This document shows, piece after piece, positions 3,260-45,348 of a DNA stretch of 64,000 nt (position 1 is the first letter of the stretch; each line of letters begins with the position of its first letter). This DNA comes from Methanosphaera sp. ISO3-F5 (lineage in GTDB: Archaea > Methanobacteriota > Methanobacteria > Methanobacteriales > Methanobacteriaceae). The notes beneath the pieces are model-generated. The model did no database searches. It was not told the origin of the DNA and saw only the letters and a list, made by a program, of their open reading frames with translations. Location: NCBI RefSeq assembly GCF_034480035.2, contig NZ_CP118753.2, positions 767,001-831,000 on the forward strand. Direction: 5' to 3'. The position numbers were made by a program, and so were the translations under genes.

Positions 3260-3263
3260 TTAC

Positions 3264-4322: not shown

Positions 4323-4324
4323 TA

Positions 4325-5344: not shown

Positions 5345-5362
5345 AGGGTGGTGAATAATAAA

Positions 5363-12892: not shown

Positions 12893-12894
12893 TA

Positions 12895-12920
12895 TTTTCT
12901 TTTTTTTTAAACTTTTTTTC
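12895..12920 (+). terminator. Double T-run after the SGNH-like gene
   Basis: Runs of nine and seven T follow the stop codon at 12892 within 30 bases. This fits an oligo-T archaeal terminator ahead of the next promoter, and the 177-base gap to the 13070 gene leaves room for one. Confidence 0.5.
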
Positions 12921-13069
12921 AGTCTTAAAAAATATATGGGTAAAATATAAACTTTTTAAATAACATACTAAATATATTAATGAATTTTTTTTTCATGATT
13001 CTATAATATTTTCAATAATAATAAATAACTAAGTTACTAGAATAAGTTACAGGTTAATGGGAGATTTTT

Positions 13070-15274
13070 ATGGTAGGAATATCAATAATAATGCCAGTTT
13101 ATGATGTATCTAATTATTTACAAAACGCTATCAACAGTATTGAAAATCAAACATTTGAAGATGTAGAAGTAATATGTGTAAATGATGGATCAACAGATAA
13201 TTCTCTAGAAGTATTAAATAAAATAAAAAAAGATTATGATAAACTAGTAATAGTAAACCAGGAAAATGCGGGTCCGGGAATAGCAAGAAACACTGGAATA
13301 GACTATGCTACTGGGGAATACATAGCATTTTTGGATTCTGATGACATCTTTCTTGACGAAGATGCATTAGAAAAAATGTACAATTCCGCTAAGGAAAACA
13401 ATGCCGACCTGGTCTGTGGAAATCTTAAATGGATAAACCAAGATTACACCGTAGACAAGTACTATGATTATGTGAACACAAAATATGCATATGCATTTAA
13501 AGAAGAAGAAAAAACTACACAGGAATATGGTATTCCTTTCGCATTCTATAAAAACATTTTTAAAAAAGAATTTTTAAATCAATATAATATTCGTTTTCCT
13601 AACATGCGTGCAGGTGAAGACCCTATATTCATGGCTAATGTATTAACCAACACAGATAAATGTTATATGGTGCCTGTAGACTTGTATGGATATAATCATT
13701 CCATTGGTGGAGGAGTTAACGAGAAAATTGACTCATATGAAAAAAAATATTCTTATATCATTCATTTCAAGGAAATTTTTGACATATTTAAGAAAAACAA
13801 TTTTAACTCAGCACTGTCATTATACAAGAACGAATTCATCCGTTATTATCTAATTTACTCTGATAATATGCAGGACCCTGAAATCATTGAAATAATAAGA
13901 AGTAACTTCAATAATTATGAAGATTACTTTAATAAGGAAGATTTCGGATACTTTATAATGGATTATATTGTTAATGAAGATATGGGTGCATCCTCTGATG
14001 AGTATAATTTAATCAAGAAATGTTTATTTGAAGAGGCATGCCTAAACAATAACTTCATTGAATTAGATGAACTGAAAGAATATGTTAAACTAATGGATGA
14101 GGACAAATATTCTTCTGATAAAAATAATCTGGCTAAATCTTCATATCATGAATTAAACACAATTAAAACAGTAACAGATAAGAATATTGACAGTGTAACT
14201 GAAGAATTACAAGGCTTAAAGGATGAATTAACTTCACAATACTATGATAATAATGCTGAATTCCTTAGAAAATACTATGAATCAAGATTTGACATTAAAA
14301 ATGTTGGAGAAGAAGATAATGACGTTACTTTACTTGAATGTGATGATGTTATGTGTATTCCATCCAAGCCATCATGGTTTACTGATGAGGAAGGAAAAGG
14401 TATGGTATTAAATAGTATTAAAGGTGACATAAACTTTACTTTCCAGTGTGTAAATGATGGTCTTCTAAGAATTAACTTTAAAGGATTAGATTATAGGGAT
14501 AAAAAAGACAACCGTATTCCAATATTCATAGATTTCTCTGAAGTAATAGTTGATGGGGTTAATTATGTGAATAGAAGTAGGGTAGCATGGCATGATAATC
14601 CAATCGTTGTCGAGAAAGAAGTGCGGGATGGTCAAACTGTTAATGTACGTGCAAAATGGTCTCCATTAAATTATAGTAGTAACTTAGAATTGTTCAGTAA
14701 CTATGATGAATTATCCTATCTTGTTTCAGAGGGCAGAATGGATATCAAGAACTTTGGAAGCAAGGATAATAATGTTAAAATATTGAATCAGGATGAGCTG
14801 GAATGTGAAATTACCCAACCTGAATGGTTTGTTGATGAAGAAGGTAAAGGATTAATAATAGAATCTAATGAGGGAAAAATTAACTTACAAGTTGAATGTG
14901 AGGGTGATGGTGATTTCCTCATAGAATTCCGTAGTATCGATTATAGGGATGATCAAGATAATAGGATTCCAGTTTTAATCAAGTATAATAGTATTATAGT
15001 TGATGGTGAAACGATATTGGATAAGGAAAGAGTGTCATGGCATGATGATCCTATACTTTTTGAGCAAAAAGTTAAAGATGGGCAGGTGCTGAATATTGAA
15101 GCAAAATGGTCCTTATTTAATGATAAGTATTATGAAGTCGAAGAGTTACTTGACTTAAAATATAGATTATATTATGAAAATATGGAATTAAGAAAGTTCA
15201 GAGACACAGTTATTAACTCAACTTCTTGGAAAATAACAAGTCCTTTACGTTTACTTAAAAGGATAATACGATAA
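13070..15274 (+). CDS. Family 2 glycosyltransferase with two C-terminal repeat modules
   Basis: A 734-aa protein. Residues 1-~230 are a GT-A domain: GISIIMPVYDVS, VCVNDGSTDNS, GPGIARNTGI and FLDSDDIFLD with an intact DxD. It is closely related to the 2027 protein. Residues ~405-525 and ~555-675 are two copies of a module with DIKN[VF]G, PxWFxDEEGKG, GLDYRD/SIDYRD, DNRIP and VxWHDxPI, probably a beta-sandwich, also present once in the 11387 protein. The C-terminus is STSWKITSPLR. GGGAGAT precedes ATG 13070. It probably extends or decorates the surface polymer, with the modules binding the glycan or a partner; that part is inferred. Confidence 0.82.
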   Translation: MVGISIIMPVYDVSNYLQNAINSIENQTFEDVEVICVNDGSTDNSLEVLNKIKKDYDKLVIVNQENAGPGIARNTGIDYATGEYIAFLDSDDIFLDEDALEKMYNSAKENNADLVCGNLKWINQDYTVDKYYDYVNTKYAYAFKEEEKTTQEYGIPFAFYKNIFKKEFLNQYNIRFPNMRAGEDPIFMANVLTNTDKCYMVPVDLYGYNHSIGGGVNEKIDSYEKKYSYIIHFKEIFDIFKKNNFNSALSLYKNEFIRYYLIYSDNMQDPEIIEIIRSNFNNYEDYFNKEDFGYFIMDYIVNEDMGASSDEYNLIKKCLFEEACLNNNFIELDELKEYVKLMDEDKYSSDKNNLAKSSYHELNTIKTVTDKNIDSVTEELQGLKDELTSQYYDNNAEFLRKYYESRFDIKNVGEEDNDVTLLECDDVMCIPSKPSWFTDEEGKGMVLNSIKGDINFTFQCVNDGLLRINFKGLDYRDKKDNRIPIFIDFSEVIVDGVNYVNRSRVAWHDNPIVVEKEVRDGQTVNVRAKWSPLNYSSNLELFSNYDELSYLVSEGRMDIKNFGSKDNNVKILNQDELECEITQPEWFVDEEGKGLIIESNEGKINLQVECEGDGDFLIEFRSIDYRDDQDNRIPVLIKYNSIIVDGETILDKERVSWHDDPILFEQKVKDGQVLNIEAKWSLFNDKYYEVEELLDLKYRLYYENMELRKFRDTVINSTSWKITSPLRLLKRIIR

Positions 15275-15292
15275 TGTGGGGGATTGATTACT

Positions 15293-16336
15293 ATGGTAGA
15301 AATTTCTGTAATAATGTATGTTTACAATAATCAAATCTTCTTAAATGAATCATTGGATAGCATAATAAATCAAACATTGGATGACATTGAAATAATATGT
15401 ATTGATGATGCATCAAGTGATGCTTCACTAGAAATACTCAGTGAATATCAGCAAAAATATGATAATTTAAAAATAGATTCCTATGAACATATTGGATTAG
15501 CTGATGCTTTAAACAGTACCTTAGATAAAATAAATGGAAAATATGTTTATATAACAAATCCGGGATGTATACTTAGTGAGGATGCTTTAAAAATATTATT
15601 TGAAAAATCTGAAGAAAATATTTCACAAGTAACAGTATCTAACAAGAAAATTTTAGATGAAACCGGTCATATTGAAGAAGAAAAAGCATTCAATAAAGTA
15701 GGTGGGCAGGTATTCAACTATGAATCTATTGATGATTTAACAAAAATGGATGTTTCAATAGAAAATAAATTATTCAATACCAATTTTATTAAAGAAAATA
15801 ATATTAAGTTTATGAATGATGATGTTAAATCATTTGTATATAATTCCATATTCCAGTCTGAAAGAATTTCATACATTAAAAAAGCATTATTCACAATTAA
15901 ACAGTATTATCAAAAATTAAATAAAATTAATGATAATCAGCTATTTAACACAATACCTATACAGAATAACATTATAGATATATTCAGGCAATTCAATAAA
16001 TTGGAAACTAATAATAATAAATTATATGATAATAAAATGTGGACAACCCTGGATGCATTGAATAAAATTTCTCCAGACTATAAAGAGAATTATTATAATG
16101 CTATTCGTGAAGATTTAAAACAAATATTATTAGATGATAATTTTTGCAACGAATTCTTGGATAATATATCATTACATTATAGGAAATTCTTTGAAATGAT
16201 TATAATCTCAGAGACTTACTATGAATATGAGTTATTGAAGAAAACATACTATAAAATGAATGATTACTATGGATTATTAATTGATAGAAATTATTATAGG
16301 AATGTTCAAGAAAAGAAAAAAGAGATGGAATCATAA
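15293..16336 (+). CDS. GT2-like protein lacking a DxD motif
   Basis: A 347-aa protein with GT2 order: ISVIMYVYNNQIF, ICIDDASSDAS, GLADALNSTLDK, then KYVYITNPGC where FLDxDD is expected. The metal-binding DxD is therefore missing, as in the 3264 protein, which holds the matching position in the first cassette. The start is ATG 15293, because the GGGGGA site just before TTG 15284 serves this ATG at normal spacing. The C-terminal half is helical and ends in a charged coil. It may be catalytically inactive and act as a partner of the two flanking enzymes, or may use another metal ligand. Confidence 0.65.
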   Translation: MVEISVIMYVYNNQIFLNESLDSIINQTLDDIEIICIDDASSDASLEILSEYQQKYDNLKIDSYEHIGLADALNSTLDKINGKYVYITNPGCILSEDALKILFEKSEENISQVTVSNKKILDETGHIEEEKAFNKVGGQVFNYESIDDLTKMDVSIENKLFNTNFIKENNIKFMNDDVKSFVYNSIFQSERISYIKKALFTIKQYYQKLNKINDNQLFNTIPIQNNIIDIFRQFNKLETNNNKLYDNKMWTTLDALNKISPDYKENYYNAIREDLKQILLDDNFCNEFLDNISLHYRKFFEMIIISETYYEYELLKKTYYKMNDYYGLLIDRNYYRNVQEKKKEMES

Positions 16337-16364
16337 AAAAAAATTTAATGTGGGGGATAAGATA

Positions 16365-17345
16365 ATGAATACATCACCAATAATTTCTGTAATAATGCCG
16401 TCATTAAATGTTGAAGATTATATGCAGCAGTGTTTAAAAAGTGTTCTTAATCAATCATTAACTGATATTGAAGTGATTTGTATAGATGCAGGATCCACAG
16501 ACAAAACAGTAGATATAATAAAGGAATGTCAAAAAGATGATGATAGGATAAAGTTTTTAACTTCTGATAAGAAAAGTTACGGATACCAAGTAAACATGGG
16601 ACTTAAGGAAGCCAAGGGAAAATATATTAGTATTATTGAAACTGATGATTATATCAGCAGTAACATGTTTGAAACATTGTATTCTCTTTCAGAAGATGAT
16701 ACTGTCGACATTATTAAAAGTAATTTCTTCTATCTGAATGATTATGATAAAAATGATGTGCAAATAAAAATTGATGTTGCTAAAAGAAATCTTGTTAATA
16801 ATGGTGTATTTACTTTAAAAGAAGAACCATTAATAGTGGAGGGCCATCCATCAATTTGGGCAGGTATTTATCGTAGGAACTTCTTAATTGATAATAATAT
16901 TAACTTCCTGGAAGTTCCTAAGGGTGGCTGGGTTGATAATCCATTTTTCTATGAAACTGCTATTAAGGCTGAAAAAATACGTTATATTAATGATGCATTT
17001 TATTATTATAGGATAACTAATCCTAACTCTTCTACTAATGATTTTGGTGATAATAAATTACCAATGCAGAGAATTCTGGATATTTATGATGTTTTTGAAC
17101 GATGTGGTGAGGATGATTTAAATGTTGTTTTAATGTTTTATATTCGTATTTTCAGGTATATAGAAATTATATTGGAGAATACTGATGGTGGTTTGGATAG
17201 TTTAGATTATGATACTTGTTCTATTATTCAAAAAGTATTATCTAAGGTGGATGAATCATTAGTTAAAGAATATATGAATAAGAATTTTAAGGCATTGTAT
17301 TATAAGTTTATGTCACCTCTCGTGTTACTAAAATTTAACACTTAA
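16365..17345 (+). CDS. Family 2 glycosyltransferase
   Basis: A 326-aa GT-A protein: ISVIMPSLNVEDYM, VICIDAGSTDKT and IIETDDYIS, with ETDD at the DxD position. EGHPSIWAGIYRR and GGWVDNPFFYETA mark it as the paralogue of the 5363 protein. The open frame extends back to 16281, but GTGGGGGAT immediately upstream fixes the start at ATG 16365. It is the last gene of the second cassette. Compared with its A/C-ending paralogue, this gene uses many T-ending codons. Confidence 0.82.
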   Translation: MNTSPIISVIMPSLNVEDYMQQCLKSVLNQSLTDIEVICIDAGSTDKTVDIIKECQKDDDRIKFLTSDKKSYGYQVNMGLKEAKGKYISIIETDDYISSNMFETLYSLSEDDTVDIIKSNFFYLNDYDKNDVQIKIDVAKRNLVNNGVFTLKEEPLIVEGHPSIWAGIYRRNFLIDNNINFLEVPKGGWVDNPFFYETAIKAEKIRYINDAFYYYRITNPNSSTNDFGDNKLPMQRILDIYDVFERCGEDDLNVVLMFYIRIFRYIEIILENTDGGLDSLDYDTCSIIQKVLSKVDESLVKEYMNKNFKALYYKFMSPLVLLKFNT

Positions 17346-30162: not shown

Positions 30163-33100
30163 TTAGTCTACATCCCATTTAGCAGTTTTAAACCCATACT
30201 TCTTCTGTTCTTCTGGCGACCATCTGTTTTGAACATATAAAAGATTATGTTCCTTCTCAGATTTTTTTCTAAGCGTACTGGTTGCTTGTTGTAATTTATG
30301 ATACACTCTTGCCTCAGATACATGATATATCTTCTGATTAAGAATGCTACGAATATAATTGCAATATATCATATCTGATCTGAAATGTCTTCCTAGTTCA
30401 GCATCTAATCCTAATGATTTATTGTATGTGTCACGTTTAATGTATACGCAGAAAAATGCTGCGAAACTAATTTCAGTATATTCACCATTATGGAATAATG
30501 GAACATTAATAATATTCTTATGATGGTTTGATAAATTCACATCACATTCAATATTTTTTTGAGCAAATGGTACATGAACATTAATTGTTTTAGTATTTGC
30601 AGGCAATACTTGTTGTGGAACAGTTATTCCACAATCTTTTAATTCATAAGCTGCTTTTTGTAGTAATGGTATTGCATTTTTAGTTACAACAGCATCATTA
30701 TTTAGTAAAAGAATATCATTTCTTATATCTGAAATTTCAATTCCTTGATTAACTGCATAAGTAAATCCAAGATTTTCATTGTTTAATATTAATTTAATTT
30801 TATGTTTATCTTTTAAATCAATCAGATATTTTATTACATCTTCACTAGAATTATTATCTATAACAATAATTTCGAGCCAAGAAGCTTTTAATTCAAATAG
30901 TGAGTTCAAACATTCTTTTAAATCTTTTAAAGATTCATAACTTGGAATGATTACACTCACGCCATGTTTCATGTTAAAATCATATTTTTTGGACTCTAAT
31001 CTCTTTTTTTGATTTTCAATCACTATTTCGGATTGGTTTAATAATTTAACATCATTTGATATGGAATTTTCTGCAATATTAAAATAATAGTTAGATAATA
31101 TGACTGGTATTGAATATATTTTCCCGTAGGTCATATATTTTAATATTAAATCCCAATCTACAAAACGTTTTAAACCTTCATCAAAACCGCCATTTTCTTC
31201 ATATATCTCACGGGTATGACAAAAACTATTTAAGTCAACATAGTTCCTGTTCATTAATAACCCTTTGTTTATGGTACCATATCGTATATATTTAAGGTTG
31301 TTCTTTTCTTTTTCATACACGTATTGTCCTGAATATAATGCATCAGCATCTTCAAGTACATTGAATGCTCCAATCATAGTTTTAACATAATCTTTTTCCC
31401 AATTGTTATCTGAGTCCAAGTACATTATGTATTTTCCTCTGGATTCTTTTAAACCAATGTTTCTGGACTTGGAAACTCCATAATTTTCTGGATTATTTAT
31501 TAATTTTATACGATTGTCATCAAAACTATTTATCTTGTCAAGAGTGTTGTCCGTACTATTATCATTAATGATTATTAACTCTAAATTCTTATAACTTTGA
31601 GTTAAAACAGATGTAATTGCATTTTCTATTAAATCTTCCCTATTATAGACTGGCATTATCACAGTAACTAGGGGGTTATCATTTACATTTCCACATAAAT
31701 ATTTGGCAATATTATTCATTACGGCAAGTATTTTCTTTCTAGGTTCATTTAATGGTAAAATCATTTCTGGTGATGTCATACTATGGGAAAAGAATCTTTC
31801 TATATTATTTTCAAAGTCATACTTGACAAATGAATGACTTATCTCGCTAATTACTTTGTTTTCTGCTATTAATTGTATTTTATGTTCTTTTCCGTCAATA
31901 AAGTCATCGGGAATGCTGAATTCAAAGCCATGTTTTCCTTGATTTATATGTTTTAGTTTAAGGTCTTCCCTGTATATGTCGGCTATTATTGGATAGGATT
32001 TGTTTTCAATCTTTATTTTTGCAGGTACTGGTTCATTATTTCCAATTTCTGCCACCCATCCTTTAATCAAAGTATCCTTTATGCTGCTCTGAAAAGCTCC
32101 TTTCACTGGTTTTTTGGAGCTACGATCATTTTTCTTGGAATTGTAGGTAATTTCATCAATTTTGAAAGTATCAAAGTATATTAATTCAATTTTGTGGTCA
32201 TTGTTGTCTTTGTATTCTTCTGGGATAATAAATTCAAATCCGTGTTCGCCGTGATTTATATGTTTTTTTTCTAAATCTTCCCGGTAAATGTTAGCGTTTA
32301 GGGGATATATTTTATTATCAATTTTAAGTTTAGCATCTATTGGGTAATTGTTTCCAATTTCAGCTATCCAACCTCTCAGAACATTATCCAGTACTGTTTC
32401 TTGTACTGTTCCTCTGATATGTAAATTTATGTCTCGTTCTTCTTTTCTTCCGTACAATAAGTAATGTAATGCTGGATTGATACTTATATTATTCAAGTCT
32501 GGATTTGCTTCGATATATCTATGATAATTAAATTCTTCATTAGGTTTTTGATTTTTATTAAGACAGTTATACAAGTAATGTAAATACACGTTATTACAAT
32601 TTTTAATCTTGTATGTTCGAAGGTAATATCCAATATTTAAAAAGTTACTTTCATCTAATTGCTTGTATGATTTAATATTAAGTGGCAGGTTTTTAATTCC
32701 ACCTATCTGTTTTGAATGAATTAATAAACTTAAAGGGTATATGGTGGATGATATTTTATTTTTTAAATTTTTATTTTTATTATATTCGTTTAAATATATT
32801 TGATTTAAAATGTTGTTTAACATTGGATTAAATTTATAACTGTTATTTAATTTCTTATCCAGATTATCAAATAAGTATATGAGATCATAATTTTCTGAAA
32901 GAGATATTGTTGTTAAGTTGTATTCGTTTAAGTCTTCATTAATTTTCTTATCTGATTTAATAATTAATAATGGAATTTCATCAGTTTCTTTCTTAATTAT
33001 TTTAAGATAGTTTTCTGATGAAAAATCAGTGTTATCAATAATTAGATCATAACTGTTTTTTGAAAAACTTTTTTTAAAGTTTTGTATGAAATCATTTTCA

Positions 33101-33237
33101 TTAACAGAAAGGGTTACGCCTTTTTTATCATTAAATGCATTATTTAAAAATATGTTTTCATTTATACTTGTGTCCTTAATGAATAAAATATTATCAATAT
33201 CAATATTTTTTATAAAATCATAAATTATCTCTTCCAC
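30163..33237 (-). CDS. Double family 2 glycosyltransferase with N-terminal glycan-locus modules
   Basis: A 1024-aa protein. Residues 1-~200 are unrecognised. Residues ~205-275 hold one copy of the NPDxxxxxxNPxxHYxxYGRxEER motif that is repeated in the 33593 protein. Residues ~275-372 and ~383-470 are two similar modules (RGWIAEIGNN / KGWVAEIGNN, then IYREDL, HGFEF and IP), probably beta-sandwiches. Two GT-A domains follow: one from ~524 (VTVIMPVYNREDL, IINDNSTDNTL, MYLDSDN) and one from ~755 (VSVIIPSYESL, IVIDNNSSE, LLNNDAVV with the GT2 NxD-type site). A large polymer-building enzyme is likely. It is divergent from the giant gene at 33593, across a shared 355-base promoter region. Confidence 0.78.
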   Translation of the reverse strand: MEEIIYDFIKNIDIDNILFIKDTSINENIFLNNAFNDKKGVTLSVNENDFIQNFKKSFSKNSYDLIIDNTDFSSENYLKIIKKETDEIPLLIIKSDKKINEDLNEYNLTTISLSENYDLIYLFDNLDKKLNNSYKFNPMLNNILNQIYLNEYNKNKNLKNKISSTIYPLSLLIHSKQIGGIKNLPLNIKSYKQLDESNFLNIGYYLRTYKIKNCNNVYLHYLYNCLNKNQKPNEEFNYHRYIEANPDLNNISINPALHYLLYGRKEERDINLHIRGTVQETVLDNVLRGWIAEIGNNYPIDAKLKIDNKIYPLNANIYREDLEKKHINHGEHGFEFIIPEEYKDNNDHKIELIYFDTFKIDEITYNSKKNDRSSKKPVKGAFQSSIKDTLIKGWVAEIGNNEPVPAKIKIENKSYPIIADIYREDLKLKHINQGKHGFEFSIPDDFIDGKEHKIQLIAENKVISEISHSFVKYDFENNIERFFSHSMTSPEMILPLNEPRKKILAVMNNIAKYLCGNVNDNPLVTVIMPVYNREDLIENAITSVLTQSYKNLELIIINDNSTDNTLDKINSFDDNRIKLINNPENYGVSKSRNIGLKESRGKYIMYLDSDNNWEKDYVKTMIGAFNVLEDADALYSGQYVYEKEKNNLKYIRYGTINKGLLMNRNYVDLNSFCHTREIYEENGGFDEGLKRFVDWDLILKYMTYGKIYSIPVILSNYYFNIAENSISNDVKLLNQSEIVIENQKKRLESKKYDFNMKHGVSVIIPSYESLKDLKECLNSLFELKASWLEIIVIDNNSSEDVIKYLIDLKDKHKIKLILNNENLGFTYAVNQGIEISDIRNDILLLNNDAVVTKNAIPLLQKAAYELKDCGITVPQQVLPANTKTINVHVPFAQKNIECDVNLSNHHKNIINVPLFHNGEYTEISFAAFFCVYIKRDTYNKSLGLDAELGRHFRSDMIYCNYIRSILNQKIYHVSEARVYHKLQQATSTLRKKSEKEHNLLYVQNRWSPEEQKKYGFKTAKWDVD

Positions 33238-33592: not shown

Positions 33593-36500
33593 ATGGCTTA
33601 TGGGATTAAATCAATGAGTGCAAATGCGATTAAAACTAAAATTATCAGAAACAAACTTTTTGATGAAGAATATTATTTATCATTTATCAAAGAGGAAAAT
33701 ATAGATGATGCATTAGAACATTATTTGAACATAGGATATAAAATGGGATTAAATCCTTCACCTTTTTTTGATACAAAATATTACTTAGAACATAATCCTG
33801 ATGTTAAAAATACAAATATGAACCCATTAGCTCATTATGCAATATATGAATTAGGCAGTGACAAGAAAATTAAATTTGATCTAAGTTTATCTGAATATAA
33901 AAAATTCATTGAATTGGTCTATGCAGAGAAACTTTTTGATGAAGAATACTACCGAAAACAATGTAAAGATGAAAAAATAACTGATCTAATGGACCATTAC
34001 ATATATATTGGAAGTAAAAATGGTTTAAATCCATCAATATTATTTGATACAAATAATTATTTAAAAAATAATCATGATGTATCAGAAAAAAAAATTAATC
34101 CATTAATTCATTACGTACTTTATGCATTAAATAGTGAACGTAAGGTAAAACATGATTTATCCATTCAGGAGTGGAAAAACTTTAGAAAAAAAGTTTACAG
34201 GGAATACTTATTTAATGATTCATATTATCTATCAAACCTAAAAGAAACACAGGTAACAGACCCTCTGGATCATTATCTGAGTATAGGATATCATAATGGA
34301 TTAAATCCATCAGAATATTTTGAAACAACAACTTACCTGGAAAATAATCCTGATGTAAAAAAATTGGATATTAATCCATTAATACATTATGTTCTATATT
34401 CATTTAACAGTAATCGTAAAGTAAAAATAAATCTAAGCTTGTCAAATTATAAAAAATTTAAAGAAACAGCATATAAAGAAAAATTATTTATAGACGAATA
34501 CTATTTAAATCAATTTTCTGAAAAAATAAACAATCCATTCGATCATTATTTAACAATAGGCTGGAAAGAAAACAAAAATCCATCCTATCGTTTTAACACA
34601 CAATATTATCTTCAAAAAAATAGGGATGTTAAAGAATCAGGAATTAATCCATTATTCCATTTAATAAATTATTCTTTAGAAAGTAATAGAAAATTCAATT
34701 TTGATATATCCTATCCAGAATTTAAAAAATTTGAAAAAGAAGTTATCGAAGAAGGATTTTTTGAAGAGGAATATTATACTAGTCAATTAAATGAATATAC
34801 GCAGGACCCATTAGGACATTACTTGGAAATTGGATGGAAAGAAAATAAAAATCCTTCTTATATATTTGATACAAATGAATTCTTAAAATATAATAGTGAC
34901 AGTATTAAAGGAAACAATAATCCATTAATCTATTTTATGTTAAATGATAGGGATAAGAACCATAAAATAAATTACGGTTTCTCTTATAAAGAATTCTGTG
35001 GATTTGAGAAAAAAGTTAAACAATTAGGTTTATTTGATGAAGAGTATTATCGTGTAACTAATCCTGATGTTCATGCTCATAATCTTTTATCTCACTATTT
35101 AACCATTGGATTTAAAGAGGGAAGAAATCCATCCGGATTATTTGACACTAACTGTTATTTAAAAAACAGTCGTGATATAGTTAAATTAGGATTAAATCCT
35201 TTGATTCATTATGCTAATCATGCATATAATGGGAATAGAAAAATTAAATGTGACTTAAGTTTATCTAAATTTAATGAATTTAAAGATTTTATAATAAATG
35301 AAGGATTTTATGATGAAGAATACTATTTAGAACAATGTAACACTACTATAATTGATCCATTGGATCATTATTTAACAGTAGGTTGGAAAAAAAATAAAAA
35401 TCCTTCACCATTGTTTAATACAAAAGAATATTTACGATTTAATGAGGATATTCGTGAATCAGGAATGAATCCATTACTCCATTATGTGAAATATGGAATG
35501 AATCAATCAAGAATCTTTAATTTCGGATTAACATATGAAGAATTCAAAAACTTCCAAAAAGTTATAATGGAAGAAGAATTATTTGATGAAGAATACTACT
35601 TAAATCAATTAAAAAATCAAGAAATAAAATATCCATTATACCATTATTTAACAGAAGGATACAAATTAGGGCTTGATCCATCAGTCAACTTCAGCACATC
35701 TGGTTATCTAAGCCAATATACCGATATTGCTAATGATGGAAGAAATCCGTTAGTACATTTCTGTCAATACGGTATGGACGAGGACAGGATAGCTAAATAT
35801 AATATCACATTACCGGAACTTAAAGAATTTAGAAAAAAAGTTGTTGAAGAAGAATTATTTGATGAAGAATACTATCTCAGTCAATGTAATGAAAAGAATA
35901 TTAGAAATCCATTAGACCATTATGTGGAAATTGGAAGCAAAAAAGGATTAAATCCATCAATCTTATTCAACACAAACAATTACATAAAAAACAATCCTAA
36001 TGTCAAATATTTAAATAAAAATCCATTAGTACACTATACAATGTATGCATATGATTCTAATAGGAAAGTAAATCATGATTTAAGTTTAAAGCAATATAAA
36101 AAATTCAGGAACTTTGTAATTAAAGAAAAATATTTTGATGAAAAATATTACTTATCAAATCTTCAGGATACAAGAGAAGTAAATGATGCATTAGAACATT
36201 ACTTGAACATAGGATATGAAGAAGGGTATGATCCTTCCGAGAAATTCAATACAAGCGAATATCTTGAAGAATATCCGGGTATTGGGGATAAAAACCCATT
36301 AATTCATTACATAATGAATCTGTTAAATGCATATGATACTCTATCCGATTCTGAATTATTTGATGAAGAATTCTATTTAACACATTTAGATGACTATTTA
36401 ATCACTGAAGAAGACGAAAAATTAATGAGAAACGAATCAGATGAGTTCGAAAAAAAGAGCAAATATGATCCCGAAGAAATAGACGATCCAGTAATGCATT

Positions 36501-39500
36501 ATCTTACCATAGGAGTTAAAGATGGTTTAAACCCAAATCCATATTTTTCATCATTAAAATACTTGGAATGGAACCAGGATGTCAAAGATGCAGGATTGGA
36601 TCCATTATACCATTATATTATTCACGGAAAAAGACAAACCAGGGATAGTTACATGGTATTAAGTAATCACTTAAAAAAATTCGATAAAAGATACAAGATA
36701 CATTCAACATCTAACATGCTAAAAGCATTAAAAAACAAAGTATCCATCATAATACCAATATATAATGCTTACGAAGAAACAAAAGAATGTATTACAAGTG
36801 TGCTACGAAATACACATATAAACTATGAGTTAATCTTAATAAATGATTGCAGTACCGATAAAAGAATAGATGAATTACTAGACTCATTAAGATACGTTCC
36901 ACAAATCAGGATAATAAGAAATAAAGAAAATCAAGGATTTATCCGAAATGTAAACATGGGTATGAACTCTACCAAAAACGATGTAGTACTATTAAATAGC
37001 GATACAATAGTCACACCACACTGGCTAAGTCATCTAGTATACTGTGCATACTCAAGTAACGAGATAGGTACTGTAACACCATTTTCCAATGCATCAGATA
37101 TTTCCATACAAGAATTTGATAATAAAAACTTCGATGAAATAAACAAAAATGCTTACCGATTAGATAAGTTATCATATAACCTAAATATTGAAGCACCCAC
37201 AGGTAACGGTTTTTGCATGTTCATCAAACGAGCCTGTATAGAAGAAGTAGGTCTTTTTGATGAAACCTTCGGAAAAGGTTATGGTGAAGAAACAGATTTC
37301 ACTTACAGAGCATTAAATAATGGATGGTTAAATATAAGAAATGATTCAGTATTCATATATCATAGAAGACATGCCTCATTTAAAAAAGAAAACACTAATA
37401 ATTTAAAAGCAAGAAACAAGAAAATACTAGAAAAAAGATATCCTAGTTTATACGATGATTGGAATGAATTCGTACAATCAAAATCATTACAAGACTCACT
37501 AGAAAGAATACGATTACATCATGATGATATTAAAAATCCTGAAAGAATATTATACGTAACTGGAATAGAAAAGAATACACCAATCCTTGATGAAGATTAT
37601 CATAAAATTGCAGATTATTACGATACATATATCCTAACACTACACAGTAAACAGATCAAATTAGGAGTTATAAGGGAAGGTAGATTCGTATTATACGAAA
37701 AATGGGATATAACATCAAAATGGGATCAGAACACATATGTCTCATTATATACAAATATCCTACTAAATTTAAAAATTGACCTGGTCTATGTAAAATACCT
37801 ATACTCATACTATAATCCAAATAATCAGGATTTATCATTATTCATACGATTATTATCACGATTTGAAATTCAAGCATTATATGAGGCAACATGCAACAAG
37901 GAAAACATACATGAAACAATACACAACCTATTAAATCCACATGAATCACTCAAGGAATTAATAAACAAGAAAACACATGAAATTGACTTTAACAATTCAA
38001 AATTAGTAGTTTACACAGCATTAACTGGAAACTATGATGAATTAGTTACTCCACTAGTCATAAACCCTAAATTCGATTACATCTGTTTCACAGACAATCC
38101 AAACCTAAAATCAGATTTCTGGACAATCAAGTACATGGAAGAAGAACACATAGACAAGATACGAAAAGCCAGAAAATATAAGATATTACCACATAAATAC
38201 CTAAAAGAATACGATTATTCATTATGGATAGATGCAAACTTTGACATAATAGGAGATATTGAAGAATACATTCACAAATATTCATCAAACAATAAACTAT
38301 TAGTAATAAAACACGATATCCGGGATGACATATACGATGAAGCAGAAGAATGCATACGACTAGAAAAAGACACACCAGAACTAATACACAAACAAATAGC
38401 AAGATATGCAGAAGACAATTATCCAAGACACAACGGATTAATAGCAAGTGGAATAATATTCAGAAATCATAATAATCAAGAAGTAAAAGCATTAATGAAC
38501 GAATGGTACCGAGAAGTACAAGATTATAGTAGACGAGACCAATTAAGTTTTAACTATGTATGCTGGAAAAACAACTTCGAATACGATGAAAGTCCAATAT
38601 TCTATTTCAAAAACCAGTACTTCCAAAGATTATTACACGTCGGAGACAATAATATCAACTTAAAATATGATGAAGAAAGTATTAACAGAATATTAGAATC
38701 ATTTAATCAGAAAACATCAATCATAATACCAATATACAACGCTTATGAAGAAACAAAAGCATGCATAGAAAGCGTACTAAAATACACTACAACACCATAC
38801 GAATTACTATTAATCAATGACTGCAGTACCGACAAACGGATAGAAGAATTATTATCTAAATACCAAGATTATCTAAATATAACAGTAATAAATAATGAAC
38901 AAAACCAGGGATTTGTAAGAAATATTAATCTAGGCTTTGAAAAAACAAGTGACGATGTAATAATACTCAACAGTGACACGGAAGTCACACCAAAATGGTT
39001 GCAAAAACTAAAAATAGCAGCATATTCCAAAGAAAACATAGCCACAGTAACCCCACTATCAAACAATGCCGGAGCATTTTCAGTTCCAATAGTAGATGAG
39101 GACAATGAATTACAACCAGAATTAGGAGTTACAGGAACAAGTAATTTAATCGAAAAAATATCAAAAAACATCAAATTATATGTTCCGACAGGAAACGGCT
39201 TCTGCATGTATATCAAACGAGAAGCAATCTACTCCGTAGGCTTCTTTGACCAAATATTTGGTAAAGGATACTGTGAAGAAAATGATTTCTGTATGAGACT
39301 GCTTGAAAAAGGATGGTTAAACGTTATAGAACCTTCAACATACATCTATCATAAACATAACGTATCCTTCGCATCATTAAAAGACGAATTATACCTGAAA
39401 AATCGTCAATTGTTGGAAGAAAAATATCCTGATTACAGTTTAAAACTATTAGATATGCTACGATCATACAATTTAAGAGATATAAGAAAAAGAATAGCAG

Positions 39501-40792
39501 TAATGCTAGAATCTGAGAATAACTATAAATTCAATGTCCAAAGAATACTATACTTAATTCATGAAGGAACAGGTGGAACATTACATACAAGCATAGAACT
39601 AATGGGAAATTTACCAGATAACATAGAATCATACATATTAACCGCAGGAAAAGAAGAAATAAAATTATATAAATACACAAAGTCAGTAAATGATTCACAA
39701 AGTAGTGAAGAGGATGATGATGAATTTTTACAACATTTAACATTATTATCCACATGGACTATAAAAAATGAATACTCCATAAAAGACGTATTCAATAATG
39801 AATTTAGAAGAATTTACTTCAACATACTATGTTCATTAAAGATAGACTTAGTTCATATTAGACATTTAATCAGACATTCATTTGACATGCCATACATAGC
39901 AAAACAGATCGGAATACCAGTAATATTATCATTCCACGACTTTTACTACGTCTGTCCATCACACAATTTAATAGATGATACCGAAAAATATTGTGGAGGG
40001 CACTGTAGTCCAATCAAAAATAATCAGGGGCAATGTGATATTACTGGAGGATTAAATGCACCACTATTAAAAACATACATCACACAATGGAGAAAAGAAG
40101 TTTCACAAATGCTTGACAATTGTGATGCATTCGTAACAACATCACAATCAGCGTATGATATTTACACAGAATTTTATCCAAAACTATCTGAAAAAACTTT
40201 TATGATAATTGAACATGGAAGAGATATTTCCACACCGGATAAAATAAACCAGAAGCTTCCAACATTCAAAGATCAACCAATAAGGATATTATTCCCTGGA
40301 CATATTAATGTAAATAAAGGTGGTTGGCTAATCAAAGCAATAAAAGAGTATGATACAGAAAATAGGTTAGAATTCCATTATATGGGAAATATTCATTCAA
40401 AATTCCATCTTGAAGATATTGGAATACATCATGGTTACTATAAACGCAGTGAATTTTGTAAAGAAGTAGAAAAAATTAAACCACACTTCATAGGATTATT
40501 CTCTATATGGCCTGAAACATACTGTCATACATTAACCGAAAGTTGGGGATGTGGAATACCAGTAATCACCCTGGATATGGGAGCGCTTGGTGAACGTGTA
40601 AAAAGACATGGTGGAGGATACTTTATAGAAAATAATCCTAAAAAAGCATATGATAAAATAATTGAAATTTCAGAAAATGATTCTCAATATGATGAGATTA
40701 TCAATCAAATAACCAAAATCAACTTTAAATCTACTAAACAAATGGCAGATGAGTATATGGAGTTATATAAAAATTTTTTAGACTTTAATTAA
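33593..40792 (+). CDS. Giant repeat-containing multi-glycosyltransferase, 2399 aa
   Basis: Residues ~20-1035 contain eleven tandem units of ~92-95 aa. Each has LFDEEYY, PLDHYLxIG, NPS, F(D/N)TxxYL, NPDVK, NPLxHYxxY and a linker like DLSLxxYKKF. Each unit is itself two related half-units. Then come a GT2 domain (~1048-1300; VSIIIPIYNAYEET, LINDCSTDKR, LLNSDT, PTGNGFCMFIKR, GYGEETDF), a DUF616-like domain (~1469-1690; VVYTALTGNYDEL, YSLWIDANF, IASGIIFRN), a second GT2 (~1706-1950; same motifs as the first) and a GT4-like domain (~1981-2399; HDFYYVCPS, LFPGHINVNKGG, ESWGCGIPVI). Similar NPDV/HY half-repeats are known next to bacterial glycosyltransferases. No signal peptide or membrane span, so it is cytoplasmic, probably assembling a complex surface glycan. 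Confidence 0.85.
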   Translation: MAYGIKSMSANAIKTKIIRNKLFDEEYYLSFIKEENIDDALEHYLNIGYKMGLNPSPFFDTKYYLEHNPDVKNTNMNPLAHYAIYELGSDKKIKFDLSLSEYKKFIELVYAEKLFDEEYYRKQCKDEKITDLMDHYIYIGSKNGLNPSILFDTNNYLKNNHDVSEKKINPLIHYVLYALNSERKVKHDLSIQEWKNFRKKVYREYLFNDSYYLSNLKETQVTDPLDHYLSIGYHNGLNPSEYFETTTYLENNPDVKKLDINPLIHYVLYSFNSNRKVKINLSLSNYKKFKETAYKEKLFIDEYYLNQFSEKINNPFDHYLTIGWKENKNPSYRFNTQYYLQKNRDVKESGINPLFHLINYSLESNRKFNFDISYPEFKKFEKEVIEEGFFEEEYYTSQLNEYTQDPLGHYLEIGWKENKNPSYIFDTNEFLKYNSDSIKGNNNPLIYFMLNDRDKNHKINYGFSYKEFCGFEKKVKQLGLFDEEYYRVTNPDVHAHNLLSHYLTIGFKEGRNPSGLFDTNCYLKNSRDIVKLGLNPLIHYANHAYNGNRKIKCDLSLSKFNEFKDFIINEGFYDEEYYLEQCNTTIIDPLDHYLTVGWKKNKNPSPLFNTKEYLRFNEDIRESGMNPLLHYVKYGMNQSRIFNFGLTYEEFKNFQKVIMEEELFDEEYYLNQLKNQEIKYPLYHYLTEGYKLGLDPSVNFSTSGYLSQYTDIANDGRNPLVHFCQYGMDEDRIAKYNITLPELKEFRKKVVEEELFDEEYYLSQCNEKNIRNPLDHYVEIGSKKGLNPSILFNTNNYIKNNPNVKYLNKNPLVHYTMYAYDSNRKVNHDLSLKQYKKFRNFVIKEKYFDEKYYLSNLQDTREVNDALEHYLNIGYEEGYDPSEKFNTSEYLEEYPGIGDKNPLIHYIMNLLNAYDTLSDSELFDEEFYLTHLDDYLITEEDEKLMRNESDEFEKKSKYDPEEIDDPVMHYLTIGVKDGLNPNPYFSSLKYLEWNQDVKDAGLDPLYHYIIHGKRQTRDSYMVLSNHLKKFDKRYKIHSTSNMLKALKNKVSIIIPIYNAYEETKECITSVLRNTHINYELILINDCSTDKRIDELLDSLRYVPQIRIIRNKENQGFIRNVNMGMNSTKNDVVLLNSDTIVTPHWLSHLVYCAYSSNEIGTVTPFSNASDISIQEFDNKNFDEINKNAYRLDKLSYNLNIEAPTGNGFCMFIKRACIEEVGLFDETFGKGYGEETDFTYRALNNGWLNIRNDSVFIYHRRHASFKKENTNNLKARNKKILEKRYPSLYDDWNEFVQSKSLQDSLERIRLHHDDIKNPERILYVTGIEKNTPILDEDYHKIADYYDTYILTLHSKQIKLGVIREGRFVLYEKWDITSKWDQNTYVSLYTNILLNLKIDLVYVKYLYSYYNPNNQDLSLFIRLLSRFEIQALYEATCNKENIHETIHNLLNPHESLKELINKKTHEIDFNNSKLVVYTALTGNYDELVTPLVINPKFDYICFTDNPNLKSDFWTIKYMEEEHIDKIRKARKYKILPHKYLKEYDYSLWIDANFDIIGDIEEYIHKYSSNNKLLVIKHDIRDDIYDEAEECIRLEKDTPELIHKQIARYAEDNYPRHNGLIASGIIFRNHNNQEVKALMNEWYREVQDYSRRDQLSFNYVCWKNNFEYDESPIFYFKNQYFQRLLHVGDNNINLKYDEESINRILESFNQKTSIIIPIYNAYEETKACIESVLKYTTTPYELLLINDCSTDKRIEELLSKYQDYLNITVINNEQNQGFVRNINLGFEKTSDDVIILNSDTEVTPKWLQKLKIAAYSKENIATVTPLSNNAGAFSVPIVDEDNELQPELGVTGTSNLIEKISKNIKLYVPTGNGFCMYIKREAIYSVGFFDQIFGKGYCEENDFCMRLLEKGWLNVIEPSTYIYHKHNVSFASLKDELYLKNRQLLEEKYPDYSLKLLDMLRSYNLRDIRKRIAVMLESENNYKFNVQRILYLIHEGTGGTLHTSIELMGNLPDNIESYILTAGKEEIKLYKYTKSVNDSQSSEEDDDEFLQHLTLLSTWTIKNEYSIKDVFNNEFRRIYFNILCSLKIDLVHIRHLIRHSFDMPYIAKQIGIPVILSFHDFYYVCPSHNLIDDTEKYCGGHCSPIKNNQGQCDITGGLNAPLLKTYITQWRKEVSQMLDNCDAFVTTSQSAYDIYTEFYPKLSEKTFMIIEHGRDISTPDKINQKLPTFKDQPIRILFPGHINVNKGGWLIKAIKEYDTENRLEFHYMGNIHSKFHLEDIGIHHGYYKRSEFCKEVEKIKPHFIGLFSIWPETYCHTLTESWGCGIPVITLDMGALGERVKRHGGGYFIENNPKKAYDKIIEISENDSQYDEIINQITKINFKSTKQMADEYMELYKNFLDFN

Positions 40793-41130
40793 CTTATATA
40801 TGAATACCGTTTCTATGTATCTATAATATTTTGAAGGTAGATTACCTATTAGAATTAGTATATTACATAATTACTAATTATTTTTAATTTTTTAGGAATA
40901 TTCTGAGACTTTTTATTAATTAAATTTTCATTTTTTTATTAAAGTAATAATCATTAACTAAAATAAATATATTTAATTATATTCTATCTTGTTTTAAGGT
41001 ATAACATTAAAAAACAAAAACATTGAATAGATATAAAATACTTTTTTTACATTAATATTATTAATGATTATAAACAAACATTGAATCATCCAATAAGGAT
41101 ATAAAAAATTAATATTATTGGGATGATTTG
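40793..41130. other. Spacer upstream of the adhesin-like gene
   Basis: 338 AT-rich bases without a frame. It probably holds the terminator of the giant gene (T-rich at 40930-40940) and the adhesin promoter. GGGATGAT at 41120-41127 is the ribosome-binding site. No repeats or palindromes stood out. Confidence 0.4.
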
Positions 41131-43341
41131 ATGAAGAATAACATTAAATATTTTGTAGTGTTATTTGTTTTATTAATCTTCGGTATATCTTGTGCATATG
41201 CTGCCAATGAAACATCAGATTCAACTGTTTCTGATGATACGGTAACAGCACAACCTTCTGAAGTTAATAAAGTTATAACAAAAACAAATACTAAAGACAA
41301 AACAGTTAAAACTGGATATAATGAAGTAACATCATATAATCAATTAGCTGATGAATTAACGGAAAAAACTACCGAAAAAACAGTTTATCTTAAAAAAGGA
41401 ACATACAAAGCAACAAAAACTATTAATCTTTGGGATAGTCCAACACTTAAAAAGGTTGAAATTTTCGGTAATGGAGCAGTAATAGATGGTTCAAACTCAA
41501 AACAATTCTTAAAAATATTTAAAAATGTTAAAGTTACAGTTCATGATTTAACCATTAAAAATACTAAAGGGGGAGAACGATCTGGAGCTATTGATGTAAA
41601 TGCTAAAGGAATGTTAGTAGCTGATAACTGTACCTTCATCAATGCTGTTTCAACAGGTAAAGGTGGAGCTATAACAGACTCAGGATCATCAACCATACAA
41701 AACTGTAAATTTATAGGATGTACATCAGGTCATGGTGGAGCTATATGGAGTACTGGTGAAAATGGAGGAACATTTAAACTAGAAAACTCTGTATTCACTA
41801 AAAACAAGGCAAGTGTTAAAAATAATAACGACAGAACAGCAGTAGTTTACTATTTACATCTAAAAAATGTAAAAATAAGCAACAATGTATTTGATAACAA
41901 CATAGGCAGACCACTCCATTCATTTAAATCTGTTTCAGATGTAACCGGTAACACCTTCAAAAACATAGTATTAAATGCTCCAAAAGATACAATAAGAGGA
42001 GCAGTAATTGATAACTATGAAGCAAACATTAACATAATCAACAATGAATTCAATAACATTAAAATATCTGCAAAAAGTGTTAAAGGTGGACTATTATACA
42101 ACGAAATAGGAACATCCTCATTTGAAGATAACAAAATCACAGGCTTAAAAATTTCCTCAACAGAAAGAACTGACAGTTTAAATGGTGGAATATTATTCAA
42201 CAGACATTCAACATTATCAGTAGCATATAACACTATAAGCAACACCAACAATGGATATAAAGTTCATGGTGGATCATTATATAACAATGGTGGAAAATTA
42301 TCTGTTTTCACAAACACCTTCAAAACAACAAGCACTGCTTCAAATGAAATAAGAGGTGGGGCAATGTATAACGATCCAAGTGGAACATTAGTTCAGGGTG
42401 GAAATGATTTCAGTGGAATTAAAAACATTGGAAAAGAAAACAAAAGAGAAATCTATGGATCAAGTTCAGTAAAAACCGCTCCTAAAAAATCAACAAAAGT
42501 CACCTTAAACAAAGTAACAGGAGTAGTTGGTGACACTGTAAACATAGAAGCTACCGTTAAAGATAATAGAGGAATAGGAGTAACAAGTGGAAACTTAGCA
42601 TTTAATGTAAATGGTAAAAAAACAACAATAAAAACCAACAAGGATGGAGTATTCACATACAAATACAAAACTACAAAAGTAGGATCCAACACAGTAACAG
42701 CAACATTTGCAGCAAATAACAAATACACAGCAAGTTCTGCTAAAAAAACATTCACTATAACTAAAAAAACTAGTAAACTCACAGTAACCAAAGTAGCTAA
42801 CAAAATATATAATGATAAAGTTACAATAACTGGTAAATTAGTTGATAATTCAGGTGCAGTAATTAAAAATGCAAATGTTAAAGTGAAATTTAACACTCAA
42901 ACAGTCACTGTAAAAACTAATACTAAAGGAGTATACACAACTAAAGTAACTGCTAATAAAGTTGGTAAAAACAATGTTACAGTAGCTTTTGCAGGTAATA
43001 CCAATACTAAAGCATCCAGTGTTAAAACAACTTTTTATGTAGGTAAAAAAGCAACAAAAGTTACTCTCAATAAAATAGCAGATGTAACCGTGGGAGATGA
43101 AGTAACAGTAACAGGTAAATTAACTGATGTTTCTGGTGTTGTAATTAAAAATGCTAACTTAAGAGTAAGAATTAGTGGTCAACTTCAAAATGTAAAAACA
43201 AATAGTAACGGTATATTCACAGCTAAAGCAACTACTAAAAAGGTAGGTGCTAATAAAATAGCCGTACTTTACGAAGCTACTACTAATTATAAGCTTTCTA
43301 GTCTTGAATCTACATTTAACGTAGTTAAAGCAACAGACTAA
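41131..43341 (+). CDS. Adhesin-like protein: beta-helix plus three Ig-like repeats
   Basis: A 736-aa exported protein. The N-terminal signal peptide is NNIKYFVVLFVLLIFGISCAYA. Residues ~70-450 form a right-handed beta-helix of the pectate-lyase/POMP type (repeated N-x-F, GGAI, SxFxxN, NNGGKL motifs). Three Ig-like modules of ~90 aa follow at ~455-550, 550-640 and 640-736 (VTLNKVxxVxGDxVxxxxxVxDxxG, KTNxxGxFT, VGxNxVxVxFAxNxxY). This is the 'adhesin-like protein' architecture typical of gut Methanobacteriales. There is no C-terminal membrane anchor, so attachment must be through the repeats or another partner. The start follows GGGATGAT; the TTG one codon earlier is not needed. Confidence 0.88.
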   Translation: MKNNIKYFVVLFVLLIFGISCAYAANETSDSTVSDDTVTAQPSEVNKVITKTNTKDKTVKTGYNEVTSYNQLADELTEKTTEKTVYLKKGTYKATKTINLWDSPTLKKVEIFGNGAVIDGSNSKQFLKIFKNVKVTVHDLTIKNTKGGERSGAIDVNAKGMLVADNCTFINAVSTGKGGAITDSGSSTIQNCKFIGCTSGHGGAIWSTGENGGTFKLENSVFTKNKASVKNNNDRTAVVYYLHLKNVKISNNVFDNNIGRPLHSFKSVSDVTGNTFKNIVLNAPKDTIRGAVIDNYEANINIINNEFNNIKISAKSVKGGLLYNEIGTSSFEDNKITGLKISSTERTDSLNGGILFNRHSTLSVAYNTISNTNNGYKVHGGSLYNNGGKLSVFTNTFKTTSTASNEIRGGAMYNDPSGTLVQGGNDFSGIKNIGKENKREIYGSSSVKTAPKKSTKVTLNKVTGVVGDTVNIEATVKDNRGIGVTSGNLAFNVNGKKTTIKTNKDGVFTYKYKTTKVGSNTVTATFAANNKYTASSAKKTFTITKKTSKLTVTKVANKIYNDKVTITGKLVDNSGAVIKNANVKVKFNTQTVTVKTNTKGVYTTKVTANKVGKNNVTVAFAGNTNTKASSVKTTFYVGKKATKVTLNKIADVTVGDEVTVTGKLTDVSGVVIKNANLRVRISGQLQNVKTNSNGIFTAKATTKKVGANKIAVLYEATTNYKLSSLESTFNVVKATD

Positions 43342-43562: not shown

Positions 43563-43844
43563 ATGGATGAAGTTAGTATAATGTCCTATACACATATTAT
43601 TGGAGGAATTATTGCAGGAATCATATCATTCCTGTTTACAGTAAAAGGTTTACTTCCTGTTACAAATGAAATGATAGGAGTTTTAATCTCATTAATAATT
43701 GTGTATGGACTTGGAAAATTTGCAGAAAAGAAATATGGAAGAGAAAAAATTGGTTTAGGATCATGGTTTACTAATGGAGTATTACCATACTACTTCATGT
43801 GGATGACAGTATGGATACTGTTACTAAACTATGTAAAATTCTAA
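43563..43844 (+). CDS. EMC6-like small membrane protein
   Basis: A 93-aa membrane protein with three predicted helices: GGIIAGIISFLFTVKGL, GVLISLIIVYGLGKF and a final YYFMWMTVWILLLNYV. A charged loop (AEKKYGREKIGLGSW) joins helices 2 and 3. The layout matches archaeal EMC6/Rab5IP-like proteins, relatives of the eukaryotic membrane-insertase subunit; this is inferred from layout only. It lies just upstream of asnB, 67 bases away. The ATG at 43581 is an alternative start. Confidence 0.6.
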   Translation: MDEVSIMSYTHIIGGIIAGIISFLFTVKGLLPVTNEMIGVLISLIIVYGLGKFAEKKYGREKIGLGSWFTNGVLPYYFMWMTVWILLLNYVKF

Positions 43845-43911: not shown

Positions 43912-45348
43912 ATGTGTTCAATAATAGGCATAAACGGAATTAATGTAAAAAATCACTTATTTACCATGATTGAAGTTCTAAAACATAGAGGTCCTGATGC
44001 TACAGGAGTATATTCTAACAATAAAATATACCTTAATGAAAATGTTCATCAAGCAGAAAACTCAAATTTCATGTTAGCACATAACTTGTTATCAATAATA
44101 GGAAACAATGAACTTCAGCCATTACAAAGTAATAATTTAACATTAATTGCTAATGCTGAAATATACAATTATGAAACATTAATAAAAAAGTATAATATCA
44201 CATCTTTACAAACACAATCAGATTGCGAAATAATTTTAAAGCTAATCGAAAAACATTATGATAACAATTTAAAAGAAGCCGTGTTGAATGTAATATCAGA
44301 ACTTGATGGAGATTATGCTTTTTGTATAACTGATGGTGAAGATTACATGGTCCTACGTGATGAAGTAGGGGTAAAACCAGTATATTATGGTAGTACTGAT
44401 AATTATTTTGCATTTGCATCAGAAAGCAAAGCTTTAAAACAGATTAATATTGAAAACATACACTCATTAAAACCAACACAAGCAATATACAATAATAAAA
44501 TAATCAGTATACGGCAGGAGTTCATACGAGTCGAAGATAATACTGAATATTCTTTGTTAAAAGAGGAATTGAAGAACAATATTATAAATGCGGTGCATAA
44601 ACGTGTAAACAGGTTAGATGAGGTTGCAGTACTATTTTCTGCAGGAGTTGACAGTACACTGCTAGCAGTACTTCTTAAAAAGTTTGGTATAAAAACAACA
44701 TTATACACAGTAGGTACCAAAAACAGTCAAGACCTAAAATTTGCTAAAAAAGTATCAGAAGATATACAGTTACCACTAAAAACCAGGATAATTAATGAAG
44801 AAATAATAGAAAATAATTTCATACCTACACTAAACATAATAGAAGATACAAACCTGATGAAATTAGGAGTGGGAATGACAATAAATCTCACAAGCAAACT
44901 TGCAAATAAAGATGGTCATAAAGTAATCCTATCAGGACAAGGTGCAGATGAACTATTCACAGGATACAACAGATACAAAAGAAAATACAAAAACAAAACC
45001 AAACTACTTGATGAACTAACACACGACCTAAACAACATGTACCATGTAAACCTGGAAAGAGACGATAAAGCCACAATGGCCAACTCAATAGAACTAAGAG
45101 TACCATACATGGACAAACAAATAATAAAAACAGCAATAAAAATCCCAATAAACTACATGCTACACTCAGAAGAAGACAACATACGAAAACACATACTACG
45201 AGATATAGCACAAGAACTAGGAGTACCAGAATACATAGCATACAGACCAAAAAAAGCAGCACAATACGGCACAGGAATAGATAAAATAATCAAAAAGAAA
45301 ATAATCAAAAAAGAAAAATACCAAAAAATACTCGAAAACTATCACTAA
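43912..45348 (+). CDS. asnB: Asparagine synthetase (glutamine-hydrolysing)
   Basis: A 478-aa protein that makes asparagine from aspartate, ATP and glutamine. Cys2 of MCSIIGING is the class II glutaminase nucleophile; LKHRGPD and an NAEIYN-type segment follow. The synthetase half starts near residue 230, with the PP-loop FSAGVDSTLLA (Ala replaces the second Gly of SGGxDS) and GQGADELFTGYNRY. RVPYMDKQI and RPKKAAQYGTG are also typical. GAGGAAT precedes the ATG. It is the first gene of the asnB-gatC-ACT-hom block. Confidence 0.92.
   Translation: MCSIIGINGINVKNHLFTMIEVLKHRGPDATGVYSNNKIYLNENVHQAENSNFMLAHNLLSIIGNNELQPLQSNNLTLIANAEIYNYETLIKKYNITSLQTQSDCEIILKLIEKHYDNNLKEAVLNVISELDGDYAFCITDGEDYMVLRDEVGVKPVYYGSTDNYFAFASESKALKQINIENIHSLKPTQAIYNNKIISIRQEFIRVEDNTEYSLLKEELKNNIINAVHKRVNRLDEVAVLFSAGVDSTLLAVLLKKFGIKTTLYTVGTKNSQDLKFAKKVSEDIQLPLKTRIINEEIIENNFIPTLNIIEDTNLMKLGVGMTINLTSKLANKDGHKVILSGQGADELFTGYNRYKRKYKNKTKLLDELTHDLNNMYHVNLERDDKATMANSIELRVPYMDKQIIKTAIKIPINYMLHSEEDNIRKHILRDIAQELGVPEYIAYRPKKAAQYGTGIDKIIKKKIIKKEKYQKILENYH

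Follow-up and report, generated by a model that had tools for sequence, protein, structure and literature searches.

One gene of Methanosphaera sp. ISO3-F5, a methanogenic archaeon of the gut, encodes a single 2399-aa chain in which eleven tandem units of a two-part repeat, here termed the AB unit, precede a catalytic part made of several glycosyltransferase domains. The gene was identified in the window analyzed here, a stretch of 64,000 nucleotides at contig positions 767001–831000 of the 2.68-Mb genome. We read the protein, with a probability of about 0.5, as a cytosolic surface-polysaccharide synthase whose repeat array would act as a rigid scaffold for the growing glycan and/or for partner proteins. 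Its orthologues in other Methanosphaera carry the same core behind arrays of very different length.

Integrity of the Giant Gene

The gene occupies positions 33593–40792 of the window (plus strand) as 2399 codons in one open frame, with no interruption and no frameshift. The same frame, with 2403 aa and 98.6–100% identity per region, is present in an independently assembled metagenome-assembled genome (MAG) from goat jejunum (G117), which indicates that the giant ORF is neither an assembly artefact nor a fused frameshift. The closest named relatives are MAGs of the same genus, Methanosphaera. The protein is predicted to be cytosolic; no transmembrane segment is evident in it, and its best 19-residue Kyte–Doolittle mean is only 1.09. 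An even longer open frame of 11,995 aa in another genome (G108) was rejected as a stretch of masked N.

Organization of the Repeat Array

The array covers aa 22–1042, and its units start at aa 22, 114, 206, 298, 389, 480, 572, 663, 755, 847, and 922. Units 1–9 (33656–36130, plus strand; aa 22–846), defined by the unit alignment, the profile, and an AlphaFold2 (AF2) model of units 1–4, stand head to tail with 91–92 aa each, divided into an A half and a B half. Unit 10 (36131–36355, plus strand; aa 847–921) is shortened in its B half to a total of 75 aa, and unit 11 (36356–36718, plus strand; aa 922–1042), which is recognized by the profile and the unit tree and adjoins the first GT2 domain, carries an acidic insertion of ~26 aa in its A half. 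Identity to unit 1 is 37–57% for units 2–10, and the positions Y, HY, G, PS, F, and NPL are invariant across units 1–10. Against a family profile built from 28 archaeal and bacterial units, with three window units among the training rows, the scores are 53–90 bits for units 1–10 (E = 1e-18 to 6e-30) and 60 bits for unit 11; because all eleven fall within 53–90 bits, a chance origin of the repeats is excluded.

The A half measures ~37 aa; the B half, which has an additional helix at its C-terminal end, measures ~54 aa. The two halves are themselves related, the A half being homologous to the first 34 aa of the B half (hhalign E = 9e-7), so that 22 is the correct count of half-units. Both half-unit signatures of the AB family, ~36 aa each (FDxxYY..HYxxxG..NPS and FxTxxYL..DV..NPLxHY), are present in the window array. 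A sequence-only reading of this DNA had described eleven two-half-unit repeats in one open frame, and this is confirmed by the profile, hhalign, the ORF, and the second MAG. Its numbers of eleven units and 22 half-units also stand; its sizes (~92–95 aa per unit, residues ~20–1035) are corrected by the boundaries given above.

The Catalytic Part

Five domains or remnants follow the array, all on the plus strand. GT2-a (36728–37528; aa 1046–1312; PF00535/PF13641) has intact NSD and GYGEETD motifs and is followed by a remnant of a GT4 N-terminal domain (37529–37912; aa 1313–1440), identified by hhalign against the N-domain of the C-terminal GT4 (E = 4e-6). A TOD1/MUCI70 (former DUF616) glycosyltransferase-like domain (38000–38692; aa ~1470–1700; PF04765, E = 4.5e-16) with the motifs WIDAN and RDQLSFNY comes next, and then GT2-b (38705–39517; aa 1705–1975; PF00535), with NSD and GYCEEND intact. 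The chain ends in a GT4 (GT-B) domain (39530–40789; aa 1980–2399; PF00534/PF13692/PF13439) whose EX7E motif, PETYCHTLTE, is intact. PF00535, PF13641, PF04765, PF00534, and PF13692 score above the Pfam gathering score in the giant protein, and the TagF-like domain PF04464 has no Pfam match in it.

Over 405 aa, the stretch of aa 1033–1433, which comprises the first GT2 and the region behind it, shares 41% identity with the second GT2 and the N-domain of the GT4 taken together (hhalign E = 1.5e-72; BLASTP E = 9e-86). This identity indicates that the core was formed by internal duplication, one module holding GT2, GT4-N remnant, and TOD1 and the other GT2 and a complete GT4. The Gly-rich loop is missing from the remnant in 16 of 16 family members compared and is kept in the second copy. 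In the 16-member motif alignment, the NSD, EETD/EEND, WIDAN, and EX7E motifs of the window protein are all intact. The order GT2–DUF616–GT2–GT4 proposed from the letters alone agrees with the Pfam matches but is better described as these two related modules, the remnant and the internal duplication having been missed. As judged from these motifs and from the lack of an evident transmembrane segment, the protein holds at least two intact glycosyltransferase sites in one predicted cytosolic chain, which is the working principle of a capsule-type polymerase.

Relationships and Fold of the AB Repeat

No model for the repeat was found by Pfam and NCBIfam searches of the giant protein or by Pfam and PHROGs searches of unit alignments, and PDB sequence profiles contained no sequence relative of it. 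The TPR/Sel1 Pfam models matched none of 10 window units and 28 family members at an E limit of 10 (HMMER filters discard most matches above ~0.1), and literature searches by motif or description did not find the repeat. The repeat belongs to no family tested, and the enzyme would work like known multi-transferase polymer synthases with a helical accessory domain. Neither a well-described domain behind the repeats nor a frameshift joining several genes, both considered in the sequence-only reading, was encountered. PHROG "pilot protein" and microvirus matches appear to stem from a short motif resembling AAGLNPMLAY: a microvirus DNA pilot protein (locus L128, 2438–3196, plus strand) has this motif, which resembles one half-unit, and no repeat. 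Since it shares only the short motif, the phage matches are treated as motif-level coincidence.

With a 13-row alignment, AF2 predicted that units 1–4 form a single rigid all-helical rod (pLDDT 92.6, pTM 0.84), in which each half consists of short helices and a longer helix ending each B half links successive units. Foldseek found no match for this model in the PDB (best E = 5.6, probability 0.01; search without a positive control) and nothing significant among viral models. Giant-virus glycan enzymes were at the top of the viral search at E = 0.3 or worse, and this link is unproven. A four-unit array from a Rhodobacteraceae bacterium (pLDDT 84.0, pTM 0.35, some linkers below 50) was modeled confidently within units and not between them, and it had no PDB match by Foldseek either; no TPR-like superhelix was matched in the PDB below E = 5 for the window or the bacterial model, again without a positive control.

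From these models, we read the AB unit as an independently folding module of two halves, joined to its neighbors by flexible linkers in the Rhodobacteraceae bacterium and held within a rigid rod in Methanosphaera; in the predicted structures, the Methanosphaera B-half helix occupies the place of the bacterial flexible linker. The AB repeat appears, as far as the models can be taken, to be an uncatalogued repeat fold. The suggestion that the repeat has its own fold gains support from the confident AF2 model and from the lack of a PDB match for either array.

Distribution and Domain Partners

The profile search identified the unit in 73 of 152 Methanobacteriota genomes, and a narrower profile recovered it from 70 of 139 genomes of the host's family. 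The unit is also present in contigs titled Sphingomonas, Methylobacterium, Nocardioides, Bacteroidales, Desulfobacterales, Myxococcota, Microcoleus, Oscillatoria, and Clostridiales, and on 79 plasmids. The rarity of a 22-half-unit array in an archaeon had been overstated, because bacteria too have multi-unit arrays and a sister archaeon has twelve units. Among 34 repeat-bearing proteins from hand-picked loci (not a random sample), a Pfam scan identified a glycan-building or glycan-modifying transferase domain in 28, with GT2, GT4, GT8, WsaF, RgpF, TagF, and sulfo-, pyruvyl-, glycerophospho-, and methyltransferase domains as partners; the other six comprise one cadherin-like surface adhesin and five proteins with no informative Pfam match. 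The earlier statement that bacterial relatives of the repeat precede glycosyltransferases is supported. In Azospirillum, a repeat protein is located among rfb genes and an ABC transporter, which is an O-polysaccharide context.

Several individual loci are worth recording. Candidatus Methanoflexus mossambicus encodes a 2907-aa chain (L068, 400–9120, plus strand) in which AB units accompany three GT2 domains, a GT4, and a TagF-like glycerophosphotransferase. A Microcoleus surface protein with cadherin-like domains (L070, 1–7251, plus strand) shows seven to eight matches to AB-type units at the C-terminal end and has no transferase, and the module is thus not exclusive to synthesis. On Enterobacteriaceae plasmids, a GT2–GT2 protein (L113, 8268–10478, plus strand) lies between IS26/IS1 copies near resistance genes, and the repeat match there straddles the start of this protein and the preceding ORF.

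Array Length in Methanosphaera

Orthologues of the giant gene were recovered at the same locus in other genomes, with numbers of units from 1–2 up to 12, a variation that the sequence-only reading had missed. The window and G117 have 11 units and G114 has 12; G116 has at least 7 (its contig ends there), and G115 and G124 have ~6–7. Two units are found in six genomes (G108–G111, G119, and G123), and one unit stands directly ahead of a complete core in G126. Most species thus have 1–2 units, and the catalytic core is conserved throughout. As sister species run the same core with 1–2 units, a long array is not essential. In G126, the unit–GT2–remnant–TOD1 block is itself duplicated in one 2259-aa chain (L079, 3025–9801, minus strand). 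Tandem paralogues of the giant enzyme occur in G115 and G124 (L075, 10981–17550, and L120, 8160–14672, both minus strand), in which NSD and EETD/EEND are gone from both GT2 domains and the TOD1 and GT4 motifs are kept; judged by these motifs, the paralogues are possibly partly non-catalytic partners.

The core tree places the long arrays in two separate clades; its G113b row, labeled short, is a partial stretch. In the unit tree, units 6–11 of the window pair with units 7–12 of G114 and units 2–7 of G116, several of these pairings having at least 95% support and others being weaker. Unit 10 clusters with unit 11 of G114 and unit 6 of G116, whereas unit 11 shares a clade of its own with units 12 and 7 of these two genomes, respectively (support 100/99). 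Exactly one G114 unit is missing from the window array, as a clean one-unit indel, and the tree gives no sign of homogenization among units. This pairing by position across the three genomes implies that the long array is older than the clade and that each unit has kept its own identity. A comparison of the two strains of the species to which the window belongs, with few substitutions, gives dN/dS values of 0.19 (array) and 0.22 (catalytic part); purifying selection acts on the array at a level similar to that seen for the catalytic part. Identity to G114 is 54% in the array versus 64–75% in the catalytic part, and the array evolves faster.

Genes at the Locus

The locus is syntenic across Methanosphaera. 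On one side are a gene for a small membrane protein of the EMC6-arch type (43563–43844, plus strand; PF19094), which follows the giant gene in most of the Methanosphaera loci, and a syntenic gene for an asparagine-synthase-like amidotransferase (43912–45348, plus strand; PF00733). A 668-aa neighbor on the other side of the syntenic locus is presumably an NFACT-family gene. The divergent neighbor in the window (30163–33237, minus strand; 1024 aa) has one repeat unit ahead of two GT2 domains, and a 65% identical orthologue lies beside the giant gene in G114. Directly downstream of the giant gene, at 41128–43341, the window encodes an adhesin-like secreted protein with Big_1/Big_3_5 Ig-like domains, which is also present in G117; in the other loci compared, no such protein was found next to the giant gene. 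The window genes examined include no recognizable flippase or ABC exporter. At 65–6346 and 11387–17345, the window encodes additional GT2 proteins, a DUF6270 protein, and a protein resembling CDP-glycerol glycerophosphotransferase, which suggests that the GT2 and glycerophosphotransferase-like genes of the window are part of a larger surface-polymer region.

Possible Function of the Array

The closest functional parallel is found in the TagF-like capsule polymerases Cps3D, Cps7D, and Cps1B, which likewise combine several transferases in a single polymer-synthesizing chain and carry a large domain of helical repeats at one terminus. Partial removal of the TPRs makes Cps3D/Cps7D less processive and abolishes their extension of poly(glycerol phosphate) (PMC11666461), and TPR removal from Cps1B abolishes oligomerization and not catalysis (PMC5974469). 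The window protein differs from them in that its repeat has no TPR similarity in family and fold searches, its catalytic domains are of GT2/TOD1/GT4 rather than TagF/GT type, and it is archaeal, with arrays of 1–12 units in its family. The Methanoflexus combination of AB units with a TagF-like domain and a GT4 represents the setting in which TPR domains act. By analogy, we propose that the GT2, TOD1-type, GT2, and GT4 sites of one chain would assemble a surface polysaccharide, that the eleven AB units ahead of them would form a continuous rigid all-helical rod, as modeled for units 1–4, and that this rod might keep partner enzymes and/or the growing glycan close to the catalytic sites, allowing processive synthesis. 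The abundant and often laterally acquired glycosyltransferases of Methanosphaera have been linked to surface structures (PMC3445992), with which a surface-glycan role fits. The earlier idea that a repeat scaffold precedes a set of glycosyltransferase domains is supported.

The array might instead be a molecular ruler that sets glycan chain length, as the coiled coils of WbdD/WbbB set O-antigen length (PMC11231755). WbdD/WbbB resemble the window protein in having a long helical element on a polysaccharide-assembly enzyme, so that length differences could matter, and a ruler would suit both the spread in array length, from 1–2 to 12 units while the locus stays syntenic and the core conserved, and the one-unit indel between the window protein and G114. 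However, known rulers carry a distal chain terminator, whereas only 21 residues precede unit 1 here and no terminator domain is present at this end; the modeled element consists of short-helix repeats rather than a coiled coil, and the positional correspondence of units indicates that length is fairly stable within the clade. We therefore regard a ruler as unlikely. Somewhat less doubtful is a docking or oligomerization scaffold, in which each unit would bind a partner (other GT2s, the EMC6-like protein, or the amidotransferase) with no glycan contact; conservation of units position by position, the divergently encoded single-unit neighbor, the conserved neighbor genes, and the oligomerization role of the Cps1B TPRs (PMC5974469) are all consistent with it, yet a glycan-related role better suits a repeat found in many phyla with unrelated partners and in a surface adhesin. 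Very improbable, in our opinion, is a passive spacer multiplied by unequal crossing-over with no functional consequence: two separate long-array clades and the faster evolution of the array speak for such neutral expansion, but the purifying selection on the array and the positional identity of its units without homogenization argue against it. A rigid scaffold is favored because the TPR parallel is the strongest and the coiled-coil rulers have a far-end terminator that is absent here.

Helical elements on capsule and O-antigen synthases decide the length of sugar polymers and the processivity of their synthesis, the examples in the cited literature being TPRs and coiled coils. The AB repeat would add another, uncatalogued helical type, shared by archaea and many bacterial phyla, whose predicted structure matches nothing in the PDB. 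A speculative extension, which we hold to be rather unlikely, is that the repeat serves bacteria and archaea alike as a glycan-handling track and that its copy number in Methanosphaera (1–12) is an evolvable setting of chain length or processivity. The syntenic series with 1, 2, ~7, 11, and 12 units on the same core represents a natural experiment on array length, in an organism group relevant to the gut and to ruminant methane.

Other AB-unit glycosyltransferases of Methanobacteriaceae and bacteria (WsaF, RgpF, GT8, and GT2 types) have the homologous unit N-terminal to or between glycosyltransferase domains; unlike the window protein, they mostly have fewer units and other catalytic combinations, and the one bacterial array modeled is predicted to be flexibly linked. 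Plant Golgi TOD1/MUCI70 proteins, which are stand-alone, share the single Pfam domain PF04765 with the window protein, whereas in the archaeal chain this domain is embedded between two GT2 domains.
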